DNA of 14,743 nt from Bacteroidota bacterium (GTDB lineage Bacteria > Bacteroidota > Ignavibacteria > UBA10030 > UBA8401). A model generated the notes under the pieces. The model did not search any database. It saw nothing but the letters and a program-made list of their open reading frames with translations, and was not told the origin of the DNA. The position numbers and the translations under genes were made by a program. Below, one piece after another: positions 2,334 to 12,682 of this stretch (position 1 is the first letter of the stretch; each line of letters starts with the position of its first letter). The stretch covers positions 14,532 through 29,274 of the forward strand of contig DMPG01000251.1 of the NCBI GenBank assembly GCA_003456055.1, written 5' to 3'.

Positions 2334-2771
2334 ATGAAGACTTTCGTTCTTATTATCTCGTTGTTTGTTGGAAACGCTGTAAATGCTCAGAGCAGTGAGC
2401 AAAGCAAACAGCAAATACGACATGTGATGGATCGACAAATTGCCGGATGGAACAGCGGCAACATTGAATCATTTATGAGTGGTTATGCACAGTTTGATTC
2501 TCTCCGTTTTGCATCCGGAGGTACGGTTACGTACGGATGGAAAGAAATGCTGCAACGATATAAAAAAAGTTATCCTACAAATGATAAAATGGGAATTCTA
2601 ACATTCAGTGAAATTTCTATCGACCTCATTTCATTCGATGCTGCTGTGGTGTTCGGAACGTGGAGATTGAAACGTTCGAACGATTCACCATGGGGACTCT
2701 TCACATTATTATTCAGACACAACAATGGTGAGTGGCGGATCGTTCACGACCATACTTCATCAGGGAATTGA
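2334..2771 (+). CDS. Exported SnoaL-like / DUF4440 protein
   Basis: A 145-residue protein with a signal peptide (hydrophobic residues 3-13, likely cleavage after VNA-Q around 18-19). The mature part looks like one NTF2-like cone fold domain: helix IRHVMDRQIAGWNSGNIESFM, then strands ending in GLFTLLFRHNNGEWRIVHDH (about 121-140), the common ending of DUF4440 and SnoaL-like proteins. These domains bind small ligands or act as simple enzymes; no specific reaction can be assigned. It should act in the periplasm or outside the cell. The histidine-kinase-like gene begins 8 bp after its stop, so they are probably co-transcribed, and this protein may feed the same response. Confidence 0.82.
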   Translation: MKTFVLIISLFVGNAVNAQSSEQSKQQIRHVMDRQIAGWNSGNIESFMSGYAQFDSLRFASGGTVTYGWKEMLQRYKKSYPTNDKMGILTFSEISIDLISFDAAVVFGTWRLKRSNDSPWGLFTLLFRHNNGEWRIVHDHTSSGN

Positions 2772-2779
2772 ACTTACCA

Positions 2780-5092
2780 ATGGAAATCATTATTTATTCG
2801 TTTTTTATCGTGTCAGGCGCAGCAGGTATCTCGTATTACGCAATTAAAAAACGCTACGCACGATTGTTAGAAGAAGAACAAGAAAAAGCATATTCTGCGA
2901 AGAACAATGAACTGCAGCTTGCCGTTGAAAAACAAAAATTAGAGTTAGCACTGAAAGAGAAAGAACATCTTCTTGCCTCTGTCCGTACTCACGAAGAGTC
3001 AAAATCAATATCGTTAAGCGGTGAAGTATTATCAAAGGATAAGCAGATCCAATCATTGTCCGCACAGCTTCACAAAGAAACGGCCGATCGAACGATGATA
3101 GAACAGAAATTGTCCGAAAAAGAACAGAGGGAAAAATTGCTTACACAACAAATATTACAAGAGGAAACCCGCACATCATTGCTTCACAACGATGTTGTAT
3201 CAAAAGAACAAACGATTCAATCACTCAATGAAGAATTATCAAAAGAAACTGCTCATCGTTTAAAGATCGAAGAAGAGCTTTCAACAAAAGTGCGTGCCAT
3301 CGAGATCCTATCGGAGAAGATACAACAAGAGACTACACGAGCAGGTTCACTGGACGATGTTGTGTCCAACAAAGATGCAGATATTCATTCATTGTCATCG
3401 CAGTTACAACAGGAATCCGATCAACGGAAAAAGCTTGATGATCAAATACAACAAGAAGAAATTCAGCGATCGTTTCTTTTAAATGAAATAGCAGCAAAAG
3501 AAAAAGAATTTCAAACTATACGAGCTACACATTCTATGGAACAACAACAGCTCAGGGATGAATTGCAAAAAGAAATTGAAAATCGAAAGTCAATGGAAGA
3601 ACGCATGAGCATTCAAGATTCAGCGTTTCGAGGAATAATTCAAGAACTTGAACAACGCGCGCAATCACTTCAAGAAGAACTTTCTACTGTCAATTACAGT
3701 AATGAGTCGCTCCGGACCACACGCGAGCAGTACGCCGAGGAATTCCGACAACGTGAAGATGAATACAAGGCAGCGATTTCTGAAACATCACTTCAACTGA
3801 CCACGACAAAAATTGAACTGGAAAGAACTGCAGAGCTCCTTCAGGAACAAACAGACATTCGCCAGGCGACGGAACATGCGCTTCAGGAAAGCAAGCAGAA
3901 ATTGTACGCATTGATCAATGAACAGGAGCAGAAACTAAAGGAGCAGGTAAACGCAATTACTGTATTGCAATCCGAACTCGCTGAATCTGTCAACGATCTT
4001 ACACTGGCTGAGCAGAGTATTCATAACATGATTCGACTCATTCCAATTCCGGCTTTTGTTGTCAATACCAATGGTGTTTGTGAATTTTGTAATTCATCAT
4101 TGGAACAATTGGTTGGCTATGGAATGAATGAACTTCGCGACAAACATTTCTCCCGATTTTTCCCTGATGATGAGCGTGGTTTTTTTGAGGATCAATGGAA
4201 GAATTCAATGAACCGTTCGGAACAATTCCATGGTGAGACCAATATTATTGCCGCAACGAATGATACAATCTCCGCATCGATGAACATTGTGGAGATCCAG
4301 ACCAACAGCAGTGAAAAGAAATTCGTTGGGTTTTTGATGGATCATACCATCGAACATGAAGGCAAAAAGCATTTTATCGCCGCGAAAGAACGCGAACAAG
4401 AACTGCTCAATTTAAAGTCGCGATTCATTGGAATGGTCAGCAATCAGCTTCGCACATCGCTGGTGACGATCGCAACAAATACGGAATTACTGGAGCGATT
4501 CATTGATAAATGGAGCGATGAGCGGCGCTATCATTCATTTATGCGTATCAATGAGTCCATCAGTCAATTGATCGAACTTGTACGTGATGTAACATTCACC
4601 ACGCGGGTAACCACAGAACCGTACACCCTGGCCATCGCCAATATCAATCTGGAAAAACTGTTTCAGTCGTCTGCACGAGAGTTGATGGCAGACCTTGAAT
4701 CGCAGCATCATTTTATTCTTTCAGAGCAGGGAGATATTTCTTCTGTTCCGTTGGATGAAAAACTTGTCAGGACTATTGCTCAGCAATTACTATCCAATGC
4801 GTTCAAATATTCACGCGATACAACGGAAGTGAAAGTTCATATTGAACAGAATCCTACATCGTGCATTATAACGATCTCCGATCATGGTATCGGCATTCCT
4901 GCTGCAGATCAGAAACATTTGTTCTCCTCGTTCTTCCGGGCATCGAACGTAAGCAATATTTACGGAACCGGTTTGGGTTTGACCATTGTTCAACAATGCG
5001 TGCAAATGCATCATGGAACAGTCTCCATCGAAAGCGAATTACAGAAAGGAACAACTGTTACAGTATCGCTGCCGCTTTCAAGAAATTTTTGA
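2780..5092 (+). CDS. Coiled-coil PAS sensor histidine-kinase-like protein lacking the phospho-acceptor His
   Basis: A 770-residue protein starting at ATG 2780; the frame opens further upstream (GTG 2732), but that would overlap the previous gene. Order: one membrane helix (2-20), a long coiled coil (about 25-410) with tandem 55-56-residue repeats, a PAS domain (about 413-520) containing CEFC (Cys434, Cys437), a HisKA-like dimerisation region (545-605), and a HATPase domain (657-767). ATP-binding boxes look intact: N-box QQLLSNAFKYS, G1 DHGIGIP, F-box FSSFFRA, G2 GTGLGLTIV. The H-box, normally SHELRTPL, reads SNQLRTSL, with Asn555 in place of the phosphorylated His. It may therefore be a scaffold or a partner of another kinase. 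No response regulator is adjacent. Almost all of the protein should be cytoplasmic. Confidence 0.88.
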   Translation: MEIIIYSFFIVSGAAGISYYAIKKRYARLLEEEQEKAYSAKNNELQLAVEKQKLELALKEKEHLLASVRTHEESKSISLSGEVLSKDKQIQSLSAQLHKETADRTMIEQKLSEKEQREKLLTQQILQEETRTSLLHNDVVSKEQTIQSLNEELSKETAHRLKIEEELSTKVRAIEILSEKIQQETTRAGSLDDVVSNKDADIHSLSSQLQQESDQRKKLDDQIQQEEIQRSFLLNEIAAKEKEFQTIRATHSMEQQQLRDELQKEIENRKSMEERMSIQDSAFRGIIQELEQRAQSLQEELSTVNYSNESLRTTREQYAEEFRQREDEYKAAISETSLQLTTTKIELERTAELLQEQTDIRQATEHALQESKQKLYALINEQEQKLKEQVNAITVLQSELAESVNDLTLAEQSIHNMIRLIPIPAFVVNTNGVCEFCNSSLEQLVGYGMNELRDKHFSRFFPDDERGFFEDQWKNSMNRSEQFHGETNIIAATNDTISASMNIVEIQTNSSEKKFVGFLMDHTIEHEGKKHFIAAKEREQELLNLKSRFIGMVSNQLRTSLVTIATNTELLERFIDKWSDERRYHSFMRINESISQLIELVRDVTFTTRVTTEPYTLAIANINLEKLFQSSARELMADLESQHHFILSEQGDISSVPLDEKLVRTIAQQLLSNAFKYSRDTTEVKVHIEQNPTSCIITISDHGIGIPAADQKHLFSSFFRASNVSNIYGTGLGLTIVQQCVQMHHGTVSIESELQKGTTVTVSLPLSRNF

Positions 5093-7070: not shown

Positions 7071-8822
7071 TTATTTCTTTTCCATCATTTTTGCTGCGGT
7101 CGATCCGCCTGCTTGCAGGCGGTATTCAATTGGTCCCGAGGAAAAATATTTTGCATCAAATGCAACAATGTGCATACCGGGTTCCATCGTCTTTTTCACA
7201 ATAGTTGTTTCCTGCTGAGTGACGGAATGTTTCAATGTTAGTGAAACGAAATTGCGCTTCGTAATTTCAAACGAAATGTATGTCATCGATACGACCGGGT
7301 TAGGAAAATTTTGAACCAGAGTTATAGAGCTGTTCGGTTTTGCATAACGTGAAAAAAGTGTTTGAGCCTCTGCCAACGGAAGTCCAGTTGCAATGCTTTC
7401 ATTCCCCGCCCGATCAACCGCCGTCACCGTATAGAAATATTCTTTTCCATTCGATGTTTCATCACGGAAGGAAAATTGATCTGAATTTAGAATTGCTAAA
7501 ATATTCTCCGGTTTACGGATGGTAATATTTTTATCGGATGAATGATATACAACATAGTGAAATGGTTTTTCATTATCCGCAGAGATTTCCGGTTCACTCC
7601 ATTTAATCGACACGACAAACTTATCTTTAGAATCAATTGATATATTCCTTGGTACATTCGGCGGAATGGAATCTTTCCAGATCATTCTTGGAACCAGTGC
7701 GGGGTAGCGATAAGCAGGCTCAATCTGATCGATAAGCGCAGCAGCATGTTCGTATCGGAAGAATGCCTGTCCTTCGGCAAAAGCACTCCGCGTAACGTCA
7801 ATTTGTTCACGAATTTCATCTTGAATATTATCGCGGTATGCACCAATTCCGATATAAATATGCCGTCCGTAATTCTCTTTCATCCAGTCATTGCATAATG
7901 CTTCAAAGTCCGGATCATTCGGATTTTTCTGCTCACCGATCGACCAATACAGCTGAGGTACGATATAATCTAGAATTCCTTCACTCAGCCATCGTCGCGA
8001 ATCTTGGAAGACTCCTGAATAACCGTTGAACATCGATTGTGCCCCATTGATGGACTGATAAATACCAAGCGGTGTTGCACCAACTTTGATCCACGGTTTT
8101 TCTTTTTGAATGAATGTATAACACGATCGAACAAATGTTGTGATGTTGTTCCGGCGCCAATCTGCTTTATTCACTCCGTCACTCCAGGTTCTGTACGATC
8201 TCCAATCATCAAATTTTTCCGATGGATATCGGATAAAATCGAAGTGGACACCATCAATATCATATGAGTTCACAATTTCCTTCACAAGATTTTCGGTGTA
8301 TTCACGGGCATCGGGATTTCCCAGATCTACCCACCATTCATTTTCAAATTGACGCACCCAATCACGATGAGCCCGTGTAATATGTTGGTGGTGCTGCGGA
8401 AGAACATCCGCTCCCCATACCTTTGCAACATTGAACCATGCATGCAACTCTAATCCTCGTTTTCGGGATTCGTGAATGGCAAATGCAAGCGGATCCCAGC
8501 CGGGATCTTTTCCCAATTCACCGGTTAGTTGTGCGGACCATGGTTCAATTGAAGATTTATATAATGTATTTCCACGGGGACGAACTTGAAAGAAGATGGT
8601 ATTGAAATTATGTTTTTTCAGTTTATCAAAAATTTCAACAAGCGAACGTTGTTGCTCAACAACATCAGTGGATTTCGGCCAATCGCCGCCAGCAGAAGAG
8701 ATCCAGACAGCCCTGAGTTCATGTTTGGGGGGTTGTGAAAGTGCAATGGAGGAAAGGAAAAAAAGGAATAAAATTAAAATATTACGCTGAGTAATATGTA
8801 CCGACAATAAAGGTGCATCCAT
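7071..8822 (-). CDS. Exported GHL10 glycosidase-like protein with Fn3 and sorting tail
   Basis: A 583-residue protein starting at ATG 8822; TTG 8846 in the same frame would overlap the cyclase gene. Order: signal peptide (hydrophobic about 15-30), a GHL10 (PF02638/DUF187) TIM-barrel domain (about 34-385) opening with ELRAVWISSAGGDWP and containing DGVHFDFIRYP (190-200), a fibronectin type III-like domain (about 390-482), and a C-terminal domain beginning NFPNP (505-509) and ending YRLQAGG near 567-573. That tail resembles the FlgD-like/type A sorting domains of FCB bacteria that use type IX secretion, so the protein is probably surface-bound or secreted. GHL10 relatives are thought to act on glycans; the substrate is unknown. 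It starts one base after the cyclase stop (TAA-A-ATG), so it is the last gene of that unit. Confidence 0.88.
   Translation of the reverse strand: MDAPLLSVHITQRNILILFLFFLSSIALSQPPKHELRAVWISSAGGDWPKSTDVVEQQRSLVEIFDKLKKHNFNTIFFQVRPRGNTLYKSSIEPWSAQLTGELGKDPGWDPLAFAIHESRKRGLELHAWFNVAKVWGADVLPQHHQHITRAHRDWVRQFENEWWVDLGNPDAREYTENLVKEIVNSYDIDGVHFDFIRYPSEKFDDWRSYRTWSDGVNKADWRRNNITTFVRSCYTFIQKEKPWIKVGATPLGIYQSINGAQSMFNGYSGVFQDSRRWLSEGILDYIVPQLYWSIGEQKNPNDPDFEALCNDWMKENYGRHIYIGIGAYRDNIQDEIREQIDVTRSAFAEGQAFFRYEHAAALIDQIEPAYRYPALVPRMIWKDSIPPNVPRNISIDSKDKFVVSIKWSEPEISADNEKPFHYVVYHSSDKNITIRKPENILAILNSDQFSFRDETSNGKEYFYTVTAVDRAGNESIATGLPLAEAQTLFSRYAKPNSSITLVQNFPNPVVSMTYISFEITKRNFVSLTLKHSVTQQETTIVKKTMEPGMHIVAFDAKYFSSGPIEYRLQAGGSTAAKMMEKK
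7105..7122. repeat. Perfect 18-bp palindrome inside the GHL10 tail
   Basis: CCGCCTGC-TT-GCAGGCGG: two 8-base arms around two bases, much more GC-rich than its surroundings. It lies in coding sequence for RLQAGG, 34 bp before the gene end. It may be a dispersed palindromic element or simply codon choice in a conserved tail motif. Confidence 0.6.
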
Positions 8823-8823
8823 T

Positions 8824-11001
8824 TTAATCTTTTGCCTTCGCTTCAAAAATCTGGATTAACGCTTCTTTACCTTTTACTTTAATCGGTTCAAGCTTTTTTA
8901 AGACAATGGAAGTTTCATTCAAGATATAGTTTGCAGAATATTCAGAAATAATAATTTGTCCGCCAATTGCAGCGCTGCACAAACGCGCACCGAGATTCAC
9001 TGAATCACCGATCACCGTAAAATCCATCCGGTCTTCACTTCCCATTGCACCCATGATCATTTCACCGGTATTGATACCAATACCGATTGCAATTTTGTCA
9101 CCGATCAATTCCGGGATCGATCTCATCATCCTCTGAATTTCAATGGAGCACTGCACGGCATGCTTCACCATCTGCTCTCCTTGAAACACTGCAACAAGTT
9201 CGTCACCGACAAACTTATCAATATCTCCTCCGTATTTTTTCACAATAGCTGCTTGCCGGCTCAAAATTGAATTGAGCATCGCAACAACTTTCTCCGGTTC
9301 CACTTTTTCTGAAAATGCAGTGAAACCGCGCACATCGGAGAAAAAGACTGTTGCCACTTTTCGCTCGCCGCCAAGTTTAACTCCCATTTCGGATGCCCGC
9401 TGCACATAATCGACTGTCTCTTTTGACACAAATTTTTCAAGATGGAACCGCTCACGTAAACCTATGATCATCTCGTTAATACGTGTACCAAGTTCGCCAA
9501 TCTCATCCCGCGATCGTATGGTGGTTGAAACAGAGAAATTACCTTTTCCCACCTCACGAACAACATTTCCTAATGCACCAATCGGAGCGACGACTACTAT
9601 GTTCATAAATAAACGAAGAACAATCCACACAAGAAGAATGGTTGCAATGCCTGCAAGAATGGAATACAATTGATTTCGCTCAATGGTTGCATTGATCATC
9701 GCCATCGATGACGTAACACCGACAACACCCCGTATTGTATGGTCGTCACCGTGACAAATCTGACATCGCTTTTCATTCTTCAAGGCAGCATATCGAACGA
9801 AAAATTGTTCTCCGTTGATCCATTGCATTGATTCGATGACAGAATCTTTCTTTAATGATTCACGAACAAATGCCAAACTGCTGCTGTCCTGTTGAATGTT
9901 TACGAATCGTTCATTCGCGAGTTTATCAAATACGCGCAGATCCTTTATCGCAGCGATCTTTCGAACATCGTTGATGAACATTCGCGCATAACTTCCTTTT
10001 CCCACCACCATAATGCTTCGAAAACCCACCCCGATTACCGATTGAAGCATTTCTGTTAACCGAAGTTCTATCTCCGCAGGCTTCATTGTCAATTGCGAAA
10101 GGTCCAATGAAACTTCCATCACACCGCGCCATTGACTTTTTGAGCCATGACACACCTGACATCGTTCTTCATTCCGAAACGGAACCAATCGTGTAAGAAC
10201 AGCATTCTTTTTTTCCCAGCGCTGCACCGGTTGTTCTTGTTCGATTGCAACAACAATAGACTCTGGTTCCGTAGCGTTTTCCTCGTTGCCAAAATGAAGT
10301 GCTCCAAAACGGTCATACACTTTTATTTTTTTAATAAACGGGAGTTGCGATGCACGGTAGACCAGTGTATCCATCAATTCACCCTGACCTGCAAGCATGA
10401 TATTTCTGAAACTTGCAGCGAGCGTATTACTGATGATCTCTGCTACTTCTTGCTGCGTTTCAGTGACTGAATTCGCTCTTATGTCCTTTGAATGAACGGA
10501 CATCAGCATCGGGTTCAGCGTAAGGCGAGTAACTCCACGTACCAAATGATTTCCACTGTGACATTGCTGACATTCGTGGTCATTCAATAATGGTTCTATA
10601 CGAACAAATTCTTTTCCGGAAGAATCATGGGTATTGAACATTACTTCCACTTGGGATTCAATTGCTTTTCGCACATTGATATCACCGGCATCGGCAATAA
10701 TTCCACGTCCCTCATCCGGAAAAACTTCATTGGTTTGATTATCATATACCCGCAATGTTCCCATTTGCAGATTTTCCCGCGCATCTTTCACCAATTCTGC
10801 AGCATACGGGGCTTTGCCGGAAAGCATTACGTTACGAATGCCAACCATTACCGTTTCACCGTACAATCGGGATTTATCCCGCTGCTGCTCAAGCAATACG
10901 TTCGACTCCCGATTGATCGAAAAAATAACATACGACCCGAATCCAACGACCAACACGAGGATGAGAAGCAGGAGAATTTTTATTTCAAGACGATTTTTCA
11001 T
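8824..11001 (-). CDS. Membrane class III adenylate cyclase with triplicated heme c sensor domain
   Basis: A 725-residue protein from ATG 11001; TTG 11013 would add four residues. Order: membrane helix (about 6-28), a large extracytoplasmic region (29-443), second helix (about 444-471), HAMP domain (472-525), and class III cyclase domain (about 545-720). The sensor region is three tandem domains of about 135 residues, each with a helix like FRNIMLAGQG, a strand like IKKIKVYDR, and CQxCH-x6-RGV (CxxCH at 144-148, 281-285, 413-417). CxxCH attaches heme c outside the cytoplasm. The cyclase has both metal-binding Asp (FSDVRGFT Asp556; FVGDE Asp600), adenine-specifying Lys596 and Thr662, and Asn669/Arg673, so it should be active and make cAMP. 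The heme domains resemble DUF3365/Tll0287-like sensors. The signal, perhaps redox, NO or oxygen, is inferred. Confidence 0.9.
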   Translation of the reverse strand: MKNRLEIKILLLLILVLVVGFGSYVIFSINRESNVLLEQQRDKSRLYGETVMVGIRNVMLSGKAPYAAELVKDARENLQMGTLRVYDNQTNEVFPDEGRGIIADAGDINVRKAIESQVEVMFNTHDSSGKEFVRIEPLLNDHECQQCHSGNHLVRGVTRLTLNPMLMSVHSKDIRANSVTETQQEVAEIISNTLAASFRNIMLAGQGELMDTLVYRASQLPFIKKIKVYDRFGALHFGNEENATEPESIVVAIEQEQPVQRWEKKNAVLTRLVPFRNEERCQVCHGSKSQWRGVMEVSLDLSQLTMKPAEIELRLTEMLQSVIGVGFRSIMVVGKGSYARMFINDVRKIAAIKDLRVFDKLANERFVNIQQDSSSLAFVRESLKKDSVIESMQWINGEQFFVRYAALKNEKRCQICHGDDHTIRGVVGVTSSMAMINATIERNQLYSILAGIATILLVWIVLRLFMNIVVVAPIGALGNVVREVGKGNFSVSTTIRSRDEIGELGTRINEMIIGLRERFHLEKFVSKETVDYVQRASEMGVKLGGERKVATVFFSDVRGFTAFSEKVEPEKVVAMLNSILSRQAAIVKKYGGDIDKFVGDELVAVFQGEQMVKHAVQCSIEIQRMMRSIPELIGDKIAIGIGINTGEMIMGAMGSEDRMDFTVIGDSVNLGARLCSAAIGGQIIISEYSANYILNETSIVLKKLEPIKVKGKEALIQIFEAKAKD

Positions 11002-11021
11002 ACTAATACTCAAAGTCCTAA

Positions 11022-11086: not shown

Positions 11087-12682
11087 TTAACCTCTCTCTT
11101 GTTTCCACCAGCGGTCAACAACTTCTCCAACATTGGTAGGAAATTCGGTCGCAACCCATTTATCATAGAAGAGAATATCAGCACTATTCGGCGGCGGCTG
11201 AGGAAAATCCAACTGCACTCGCGAAGGAAGTGCCGTTGCATCACCCACAAATAATGCTTCGCCTTGCCGCATAGAAGGGAGCATATCAAACATACCGGCA
11301 AATGAATCGGGAACCAATTTCTTTACAAAATTTTGATCGGCCGGATTTGTAAGCCGAAGAATGACAAAATTATTGCATTGCGAAAGAATTGTTTCAGAAA
11401 GTTCCGAAGGGCGCTGGCTGACGATCATACATGCCACGCCGTACTTTCTCCCTTCTTTTGCAATACGTTCCACGATCTTTCGTGCTGCACGGTTTTGAGG
11501 AGTGGGGATCTGCGGAAGGTAATTGTGTGCTTCTTCAAACAGCATGAGAATTGGAAATTCCTTTTTGTTCTTATTCCAAAAATTGAAATCAAATACTGTT
11601 CGGGCAAGCAGCGCAACGATAGTATTGACAATATCAAATGGAACTCCGCTAAGATCGATCGCTGTGATCTGTTTTTTATTGTCGAGTCCAAGAAGACGAT
11701 TGAGAATATCTTTCAGAGCATTTGAATCCTTGAATTTTTTTGGACGAAACATAAAGCCATATCTCAAGTCGGTCATCTTGCTGTCTAAACGAACAAGGAA
11801 ACGGGTAAATTGTCCGAAGAATGGCCCTTCTCTTACACCGGTACTGGTTGAAATACGTTCGGTATCATAGAATTGGAACTTTGCGCGCACTTCATTCAAA
11901 TCATAAAAGACGGGCGAATCAACGGTGATAATTGATTGCAATTCCTGGTTTCGTGCTTTCTTTGCATTTAAGACAAGGTCTTTCAACATCATGATCTGAC
12001 TTTGAGAGGATGATTCATTTTCATCAACGAACATCTCACGCATCTCTTCAAAATTCATGAACCAGTACGGCATTTCTAACTCGGTGATGTTGATAAGATT
12101 TCCATACTCGCGGAACGCTGCGGAATATTCATTATGAATATCCAATATAATGACGTGAGTATTTTCAAACATTTGTACCTTTTGCAGAATGGAAGCAACG
12201 GTTGTCGATTTTCCGGAACCTGATGAACCGAGTACTGCAATATGTTTTCCGAAGAATTTATTCGGATCGATATATTGACGTTCACCCGGATAACCGGAAA
12301 TATCACCCACCGCGAATCCATATTGAGCAAAGGAAGTAAACATGGCGGAAACACTCTCTTCATCAGTCATAAAGACATCACCGCCAAGCGTAGGAAATGT
12401 TGCAACGCCTTTTTGGAACTTTCCATCGCTAACAGAACCGATGATTTGCGCTTCCAACTCCCTGTTCAATTCGCTCACCTGATACGCTCGATTGATAATA
12501 CCAATAACCTCCACAGTTCCAACGGGCATAACAATAAAAGAACCGATCTGACCGATACGGTAAACTTTTTCATCTACCGTTCGTTCCATCGTATAGAGAT
12601 CTTCATCCAGCGATACTATGAATGCTGAACTGGTTATGCTTTTTATTTTTCCGATGTGGTGTTCTTTAGAAAATTGAGCCAT
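11087..12682 (-). CDS. HerA-like (DUF87) hexameric ATPase
   Basis: A 531-residue cytoplasmic protein of the HerA/FtsK superfamily. An N-terminal beta-barrel (HAS-barrel-like, about 8-75) opens with IGKIKSITSSAFIV. The ATPase core has Walker A GSSGSGKST (152-160), a following strand IILDIHNEYSAAF (178-190), Walker B ILMLFEEAHNYLP (378-390; Glu383-Glu384), and VSQRPSELSETILSQCNNF (421-439), typical of HerA sensor and arginine regions. HerA proteins are DNA-translocating hexamers that usually pair with the nuclease NurA in end resection, or with other effectors in defence loci. No NurA or nuclease is visible here, so its partner is unknown. It is the first gene of a minus-strand unit; the cyclase follows after 85 bp. 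Confidence 0.88.
   Translation of the reverse strand: MAQFSKEHHIGKIKSITSSAFIVSLDEDLYTMERTVDEKVYRIGQIGSFIVMPVGTVEVIGIINRAYQVSELNRELEAQIIGSVSDGKFQKGVATFPTLGGDVFMTDEESVSAMFTSFAQYGFAVGDISGYPGERQYIDPNKFFGKHIAVLGSSGSGKSTTVASILQKVQMFENTHVIILDIHNEYSAAFREYGNLINITELEMPYWFMNFEEMREMFVDENESSSQSQIMMLKDLVLNAKKARNQELQSIITVDSPVFYDLNEVRAKFQFYDTERISTSTGVREGPFFGQFTRFLVRLDSKMTDLRYGFMFRPKKFKDSNALKDILNRLLGLDNKKQITAIDLSGVPFDIVNTIVALLARTVFDFNFWNKNKKEFPILMLFEEAHNYLPQIPTPQNRAARKIVERIAKEGRKYGVACMIVSQRPSELSETILSQCNNFVILRLTNPADQNFVKKLVPDSFAGMFDMLPSMRQGEALFVGDATALPSRVQLDFPQPPPNSADILFYDKWVATEFPTNVGEVVDRWWKQERG

Follow-up and report, generated by a model that had tools for sequence, protein, structure and literature searches.

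Extracytoplasmic heme-c sensors have recently been grouped as a Cache family that includes a NO-binding member (PMC12889525). The Geobacter sensors GSU0582 and GSU0935 have two transmembrane helices and a HAMP domain (PMC3460858), a layout they share with the protein described here. In GSU0935 the reduced heme probably has Met60 as its distal ligand. Release of the Met by NO or CO, or by oxidation, is reported for both proteins, and these Met-bearing sensors have been interpreted mainly as redox switches (PMC8396549). A stable oxy complex is not seen with a HAMP-linked sCache_heme protein whose koff for NO is 6.25e-4 per s; this protein is without an axial Cys, and its sixth ligand is thought to be water (PMC12889525). 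Guanylate_cyc is named among the sCache_heme (DUF3365/Tll0287) fusions in the legend to Figure 2 of the same paper. Sensors with an additional heme motif have been noted in Anaeromyxobacter and Geobacter (PMC3831638), which provides a precedent for more than one motif per sensor.

We analysed a window of 14,743 nucleotides, the whole stretch of DNA under study, which encodes a predicted tri-heme receptor adenylate cyclase (Table 1). The order of the protein is TM1, three divergent heme-c Cache domains (D1, D2, and D3), TM2, HAMP, and an adenylate-type class III cyclase. A TTG codon lies four codons 5' of the ATG and would extend the open reading frame to 8824-11013. In nine full-length homologues examined, the start is the equivalent of the ATG or lies within about a dozen residues of it, and most full-length proteins among the best 120 of 149 homologues are 723-727 aa long. 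Pfam identified three PF21563 (Mcp40H-20_sensor) stretches, with a whole-protein E of 6e-33, as well as HAMP and Guanylate_cyc, every one above its cut-off, and hydropathy brackets the sensor part with two hydrophobic stretches, at about residues 9-30 and 446-470. An earlier note on this DNA, made from the sequence, had described three tandem domains between two membrane helices followed by HAMP and a cyclase, and the Pfam and hydropathy results bear this out. Its label of ‘DUF3365-like’ is also correct, as PF11845 (Tll0287-like, formerly DUF3365) matches above cut-off too. In a genome-wide scan D1, D2, and D3 scored 46.0, 43.4, and 35.3 bits against a PF21563 cut-off of 27, and matches to this family in the assembly (2.94 Mb in 405 contigs, 80% complete) are confined to the three domains of the cyclase. 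The fold assigned to the sensor domains is also that of the Cache family.

Table 1. Features of the predicted tri-heme cyclase gene and its neighbours (positions in the window)
Feature	Position	Strand	Basis or remark
GHL10 glycosyl-hydrolase-like gene	7071..8846	-	PF02638
Tri-heme receptor adenylate cyclase	8824..11001	-	725 aa from ATG 11001; alternative TTG start 11013
Class III nucleotidyl cyclase domain, K/T adenylate signature	8854..9354	-	PF00211, 86.1 bits, cut-off 21.9
HAMP domain	9454..9594	-	PF00672, 37.3 bits, cut-off 25
TM2, residues about 446-468	9598..9666	-	hydropathy
D3, third sCache_heme domain, residues 308-432	9706..10080	-	PF21563; PDB 3b42/3b47 match
CQICH, heme-c site 3	9751..9765	-	motif, conservation
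Met331 codon, D3, GSU0935 Met60 column	10009..10011	-	alignment and numbering
D2, second sCache_heme domain, residues 176-300	10102..10476	-	PF21563; predicted secondary structure
CQVCH, heme-c site 2	10147..10161	-	motif, conservation
Met202 codon, predicted distal ligand of D2	10396..10398	-	domain alignment, conservation
D1, first sCache_heme domain, residues 31-162	10516..10911	-	PF21563; predicted secondary structure
CQQCH, heme-c site 1	10558..10572	-	motif, conservation
Met59 codon, predicted distal heme ligand, D1 helix-turn	10825..10827	-	equated with GSU0935 Met60 via D1-D3 alignment
TM1, residues about 9-30	10912..10977	-	hydropathy
HerA-like ATPase	11087..12682	-	PF01935; 85 bp upstream of cyclase ATG

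The CxxCH motifs begin at residues 144, 281, and 413 (ATG numbering), with a spacing of 137 and 132 residues, and x6-RGV follows each of them, so that the CQxCH-x6-RGV ending proposed for each domain is present in all three. Each motif precedes a predicted strand, which is where the family criterion places it (CXXCH just before the last strand). Over all six reading frames, the window has CxxCH at these three sites and nowhere else. Chance occurrence was ruled out, as the composition of the protein predicts about 0.001 CxxCH and the motifs are conserved in homologues. We aligned the best 120 of 149 homologues, a set of 120 rows comprising the window protein and 119 others. The columns of the heme sites do not vary in any row that has a letter there (113, 118, and 120 rows for sites 1, 2, and 3). 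At the distal-Met position, such rows hold Met in 112 of 112 cases for D1, 115 of 116 for D2, and 120 of 120 for D3. A PDB search with a profile of four sensor regions returned 3b42 (GSU0935, E 5e-17) and 3b47 (GSU0582, E 1.8e-12). With the numbering of 3b42 set by Cys140 as in PMC8396549, Met331 aligns directly with Met60, and the Met residues of D1 and D2 were equated with it through pairwise domain alignments. Since CxxCH and a Met occur at the equivalent place in D1, D2, and D3, neither half of a His/Met heme site has been lost from any of the three, and by analogy with these relatives each would carry a covalent heme.

Cytochrome c maturation genes, whose absence the earlier note had set as grounds for rejecting its reading, are present in the genome: CcmB, CcmE, and three cytochrome-c assembly (PF01578) genes. 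One PF01578 gene lies between CcmB and CcmE and is probably CcmC, judging by its size and place. A further one runs into N, and the third, on another contig, has a CcmF_C match. An ABC ATPase that lies in line with CcmB and CcmE is, from its place, the likely CcmA.

The cyclase domain has D556, D600, N669, R673, K596, and T662 in place, and at these six catalytic or specificity positions no row that has a letter (115 to 120 of the 120 rows listed) departs from the window protein, in agreement with the claim that this class III cyclase has all its catalytic residues. Class IIIb-type adenylate cyclases feature two metal Asp residues, a transition-state Asn and Arg, and a Lys/Thr purine pair. In alignments to 3r5g and 2w01 the purine pair of our protein is K/T, as in the adenylate cyclase CyaB, versus the E/G of the guanylate cyclase Cya2. 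Assignment to the adenylate type, with cAMP as the predicted product, is thus supported by the residues present.

The pairwise identity of the three domains is 23.5% (D1-D2), 27.5% (D1-D3), and 21.5% (D2-D3), and their pairwise alignment scores lie 17-21 s.d. above shuffles. A protein search returned 149 homologues at E <= 1e-3, the window's own protein first. Among the best 120 of these, 113 contain three CxxCH, five contain two, and two contain one; the seven that fall short of three have lengths of 408-566 aa, and none of the 120 has four. In single-domain trees the copies from divergent homologues cluster by position, giving one group apiece for D1, D2, and D3. Bootstrap/SH-aLRT values for D1, D2, and D3 were 100/98, 76/88, and 97/92 in a tree of 18 proteins and 99/99, 84/83, and 88/79 in a tree of 11 proteins, the support for D2 in both trees and for D3 in the second being moderate. 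A single common clade of D1, D2, and D3 apart from single domains gave a p-AU of 0.354, and the three may have arisen from one another or have been assembled from different single domains. The triplication had been proposed to be not recent; the grouping by position agrees, and on the evidence of these sequences the triplication is old and its design conserved.

We searched 98 genomes of the same order, and every one gave a match, which in most cases fell in the cyclase half. A match at E <= 1e-100 was present in 24 of the 98, and in 21 a single frame was matched from residue 1-2 to at least 450, that is, over all three domains. G093, from the same genus and given as 100% complete, had no match over all three domains. 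In a survey of 296 genomes of the phylum, 15 had any PF21563 and four, our own included, had three in one frame. Twenty-one loci in named genomes comprised 19 of the triple family, from MAGs with Bacteroidota, Bacteroidetes, Bacteroidia, or Ignavibacteria(e/les) in their titles, and two from Tectomicrobia with one heme motif. A homologue with 78% identity (P0016) is named Bacteriovoracaceae, and its bin may be mislabelled.

The Candidatus Tectomicrobia locus L052 encodes a single-heme Cache domain with HAMP and cyclase, and 1210 proteins match it at E <= 1e-3. Among the best 120 of these 1210, L052 included, all 120 have one CxxCH, and the names include Tectomicrobia, Nitrospinota, Rokubacteria, Methylomirabilota, and Deltaproteobacteria. 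The distal-Met column of the same set is Met in all 117 proteins with a letter in the alignment, and a pattern asking for Gly besides Met matched only 48 of the 120. The metal/purine region of the cyclase is divergent in L052 and in L053, both Candidatus Tectomicrobia. Closer to home we found no single-heme cyclase intermediate: the 17 stretches recovered from the order consist of 15 cyclase frames, all without CxxCH, and two fragments of the triple family. Nor did Pfam find a cyclase among 12 single-heme frames, out of 16 single matches that the phylum survey gave; these sensors (L018-L028 and L032) are seven chemoreceptors and five histidine kinases. Three cyclases of ~570 aa (L076, L077, and L078, from G078, G340, and G322) share 44-47% identity with the HAMP-cyclase half and have a sensor without CxxCH, which suggests an exchange of sensors in this lineage.

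The HerA-like ATPase, cyclase, and GHL10 genes of the window lie in a row on one strand, and a possible GHL10 ATG at 8822 is one base past the cyclase stop. A HerA-like ATPase is conserved beside the cyclase in divergent genomes: it adjoins the cyclase or is one or two genes off in 17 of 21 triple-cyclase loci (the window, L015, and L033-L051, with L041 and L042 from one genome). Besides the window, these are L015, L033-L041, L043, and L045-L049. The gene is missing from L042, L050, and L051, where the contigs are cut inside the cyclase, and from L044, where the flanks are present and the gene is absent. The best NCBIfam match of the HerA-like protein, anti-phage-associated HerA, is far below cut-off (430 of 850 bits), and we see no functional connection with heme sensing. 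A deeper branch (L043, L045, L046, L048, L049, and in part L047) has the fixed order cyclase, SpoIIE-type phosphatase (5 loci), HerA-like ATPase, MsrP (6 loci), and MsrQ (5 loci), where the gene names come from scans of L043 alone and the other loci were assigned by BLAST cluster. MsrPQ repairs oxidised periplasmic methionine, and its presence beside a Met-ligated sensor fits only loosely; MsrP was not found in our own genome, the assembly of which is 80% complete. Elsewhere in the window, positions 2732-5092 (+) encode a sensor kinase whose long N-terminal stretch is repetitive and precedes PAS, HisKA, and HATPase_c.

By analogy with its relatives, the tri-heme cyclase is most likely an extracytoplasmic NO/redox sensor that operates through release of the Met ligand. 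On balance we consider it probable that the protein is a dimeric extracytoplasmic heme-c receptor adenylate cyclase in which NO/CO or oxidation frees the Met and changes cAMP; from relatives we infer the heme attachment, the Met release, the NO/redox signal, and the dimer. Each chain would contain three Cache domains with covalent heme c, with the His of CxxCH as the proximal ligand and a Met from the helix1-helix2 turn as the distal ligand. Binding of NO (or CO) at the ferrous heme, or oxidation of the heme, would free the Met, and the helical layer would then shift against the sheet. This shift would pass via TM2 and HAMP to the cyclase dimer and alter the level of cAMP, which CRP-type proteins may read. 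With three hemes per chain and six per dimer, the response could be broader or sharper.

The genome contains NrfA (E 1.3e-169), CtaD-like and CcoN-like oxidase genes that score below the NCBIfam cut-offs (the CcoN-like one in pieces), and five cNMP-binding matches above cut-off. A NosZ search gave no match in this genome and none in its controls either. We favour NO as the signal because the HAMP-linked relative holds NO and releases it slowly, and because the genome has the ammonifying NrfA. The NO selectivity may not carry over, since the NO-tested relative has no axial Cys and probably has water as its ligand, whereas the tri-heme cyclase has a Met. Collectively, the homology to structurally solved heme-c sensors, the three conserved heme sites, the adenylate residues, and the maturation genes support the proposal of the earlier note that this is a multi-heme-c extracytoplasmic sensor setting cAMP.

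Alternatively, the protein could be a pure redox-poise sensor in which three midpoint potentials allow cAMP to track the outside redox state widely and gas binding is incidental. The potentials of GSU0582 (-156 mV) and GSU0935 (-251 mV) lie 95 mV apart, and both proteins are regarded as redox switches (PMC8396549). The three domains differ mutually at about 72-79% of aligned positions, and an Arg is conserved in D1 (R75, in all 112 rows with a letter) and D3 (R347, in 118 of 120) at a place that in D2 is mostly Ser or Ala. However, divergence of sequence alone is no proof of different potentials, and the HAMP-linked relative acts as a NO binder (PMC12889525). We regard this alternative as possible but rather unlikely.

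We consider it quite improbable that one heme domain, probably that coupled to TM2, does the signalling while the others are spacers or shields that hold heme for folding. A single heme suffices on other cyclases, as in all of the best 120 of 1210 L052 relatives, but D1 and D2 conserve the distal Met to the same degree as D3, which argues against a heme used for folding only, as such a heme would hardly need a Met. The earlier note had raised electron passage between the hemes; that the protein is an electron-passing multiheme cytochrome reporting electron flux is very doubtful, since, for all that it would have three c hemes in one extracytoplasmic chain and that sCache_heme fusions with a cytochrome c-like domain occur in Flavobacteria (PMC12889525), the flanking HerA-like and GHL10 genes do not look like redox proteins.

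Returning to the sensor that acts by Met release, a structure model of residues 31..445 hints at an exchange of helices between D1 and D3. In helix-swapped heme sensors such as GSU0582 and GSU0935, the N-terminal helices of one unit lie against the sheet of another. In the arrangement of the model, which we judge unlikely, the D1 helices would rest on the D3 sheet and the reverse within one chain, and D2 would be self-contained or exchanged with a partner chain. The coevolution signal (APC-corrected mutual information, 113 rows, Neff 51.5) was slightly higher for own-domain helix-sheet pairs than for swapped pairs, with none above about 1.1 s.d. of the shift control, and if anything it argues against the swap. 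The strongest coevolving pairs link the stretch before D2 (residues 173-179) with Q371 of D3, perhaps as a gap effect. Fold searches with the full-length model returned matches filled by cyclases and were uninformative on the sensor. If the swap were true, Met59 would be the ligand of heme 3 and Met331 that of heme 1, a ligand change at either heme would move both TM1 and TM2, and the dimer would be a six-heme, intrachain-swapped cooperative switch for cAMP without counterpart in the literature examined.

Among known systems, no report of the three-domain form was found by title or the start of the abstract, in a search with subscription journals mostly outside it, and the words ‘tandem’ and ‘three’ do not occur in the available main text of PMC12889525. 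The three-heme cyclase architecture appears to be undescribed in the literature searched, and it appears to be a multiplied form of a known kind, as single-heme cyclases are numerous and such fusions are in print (PMC12889525). GSU0582 and GSU0935 (PDB 3b47 and 3b42; PF21563) share with the tri-heme cyclase the domain family, the CxxCH placement, and the distal Met60 column; they differ in having one heme domain on a chemoreceptor rather than three on an adenylate cyclase. The single-heme cyclase fusions, such as that of L052, are alike in the heme-c Cache domain, HAMP, class III cyclase, and distal Met. They have one CxxCH per chain (120 of 120 among the best 120 of 1210) versus three, and the cyclase of L052 reads GEINETAGD where ours reads GDIDKFVGD. 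P. aeruginosa CyaB and the cyanobacterial CyaC and Cya2 (3r5g, 1wc1, and 2w01) have other sensor parts, and Cya2 is a guanylate cyclase by the title of its structure entry, whereas the tri-heme cyclase has an adenylate signature. To our knowledge, WalK-type single Cache and double Cache sensors do not bind heme covalently and have no more than two Cache units. The tri-heme cyclase would tie the outside NO/redox state to cAMP in uncultured Bacteroidota/Ignavibacteria, and as a conserved three-heme cyclase it offers a natural case for asking whether the hemes of tandem sensors are graded or cooperative. The presence of three heme units where known relatives carry one suggests a graded or cooperative NO/redox detector.
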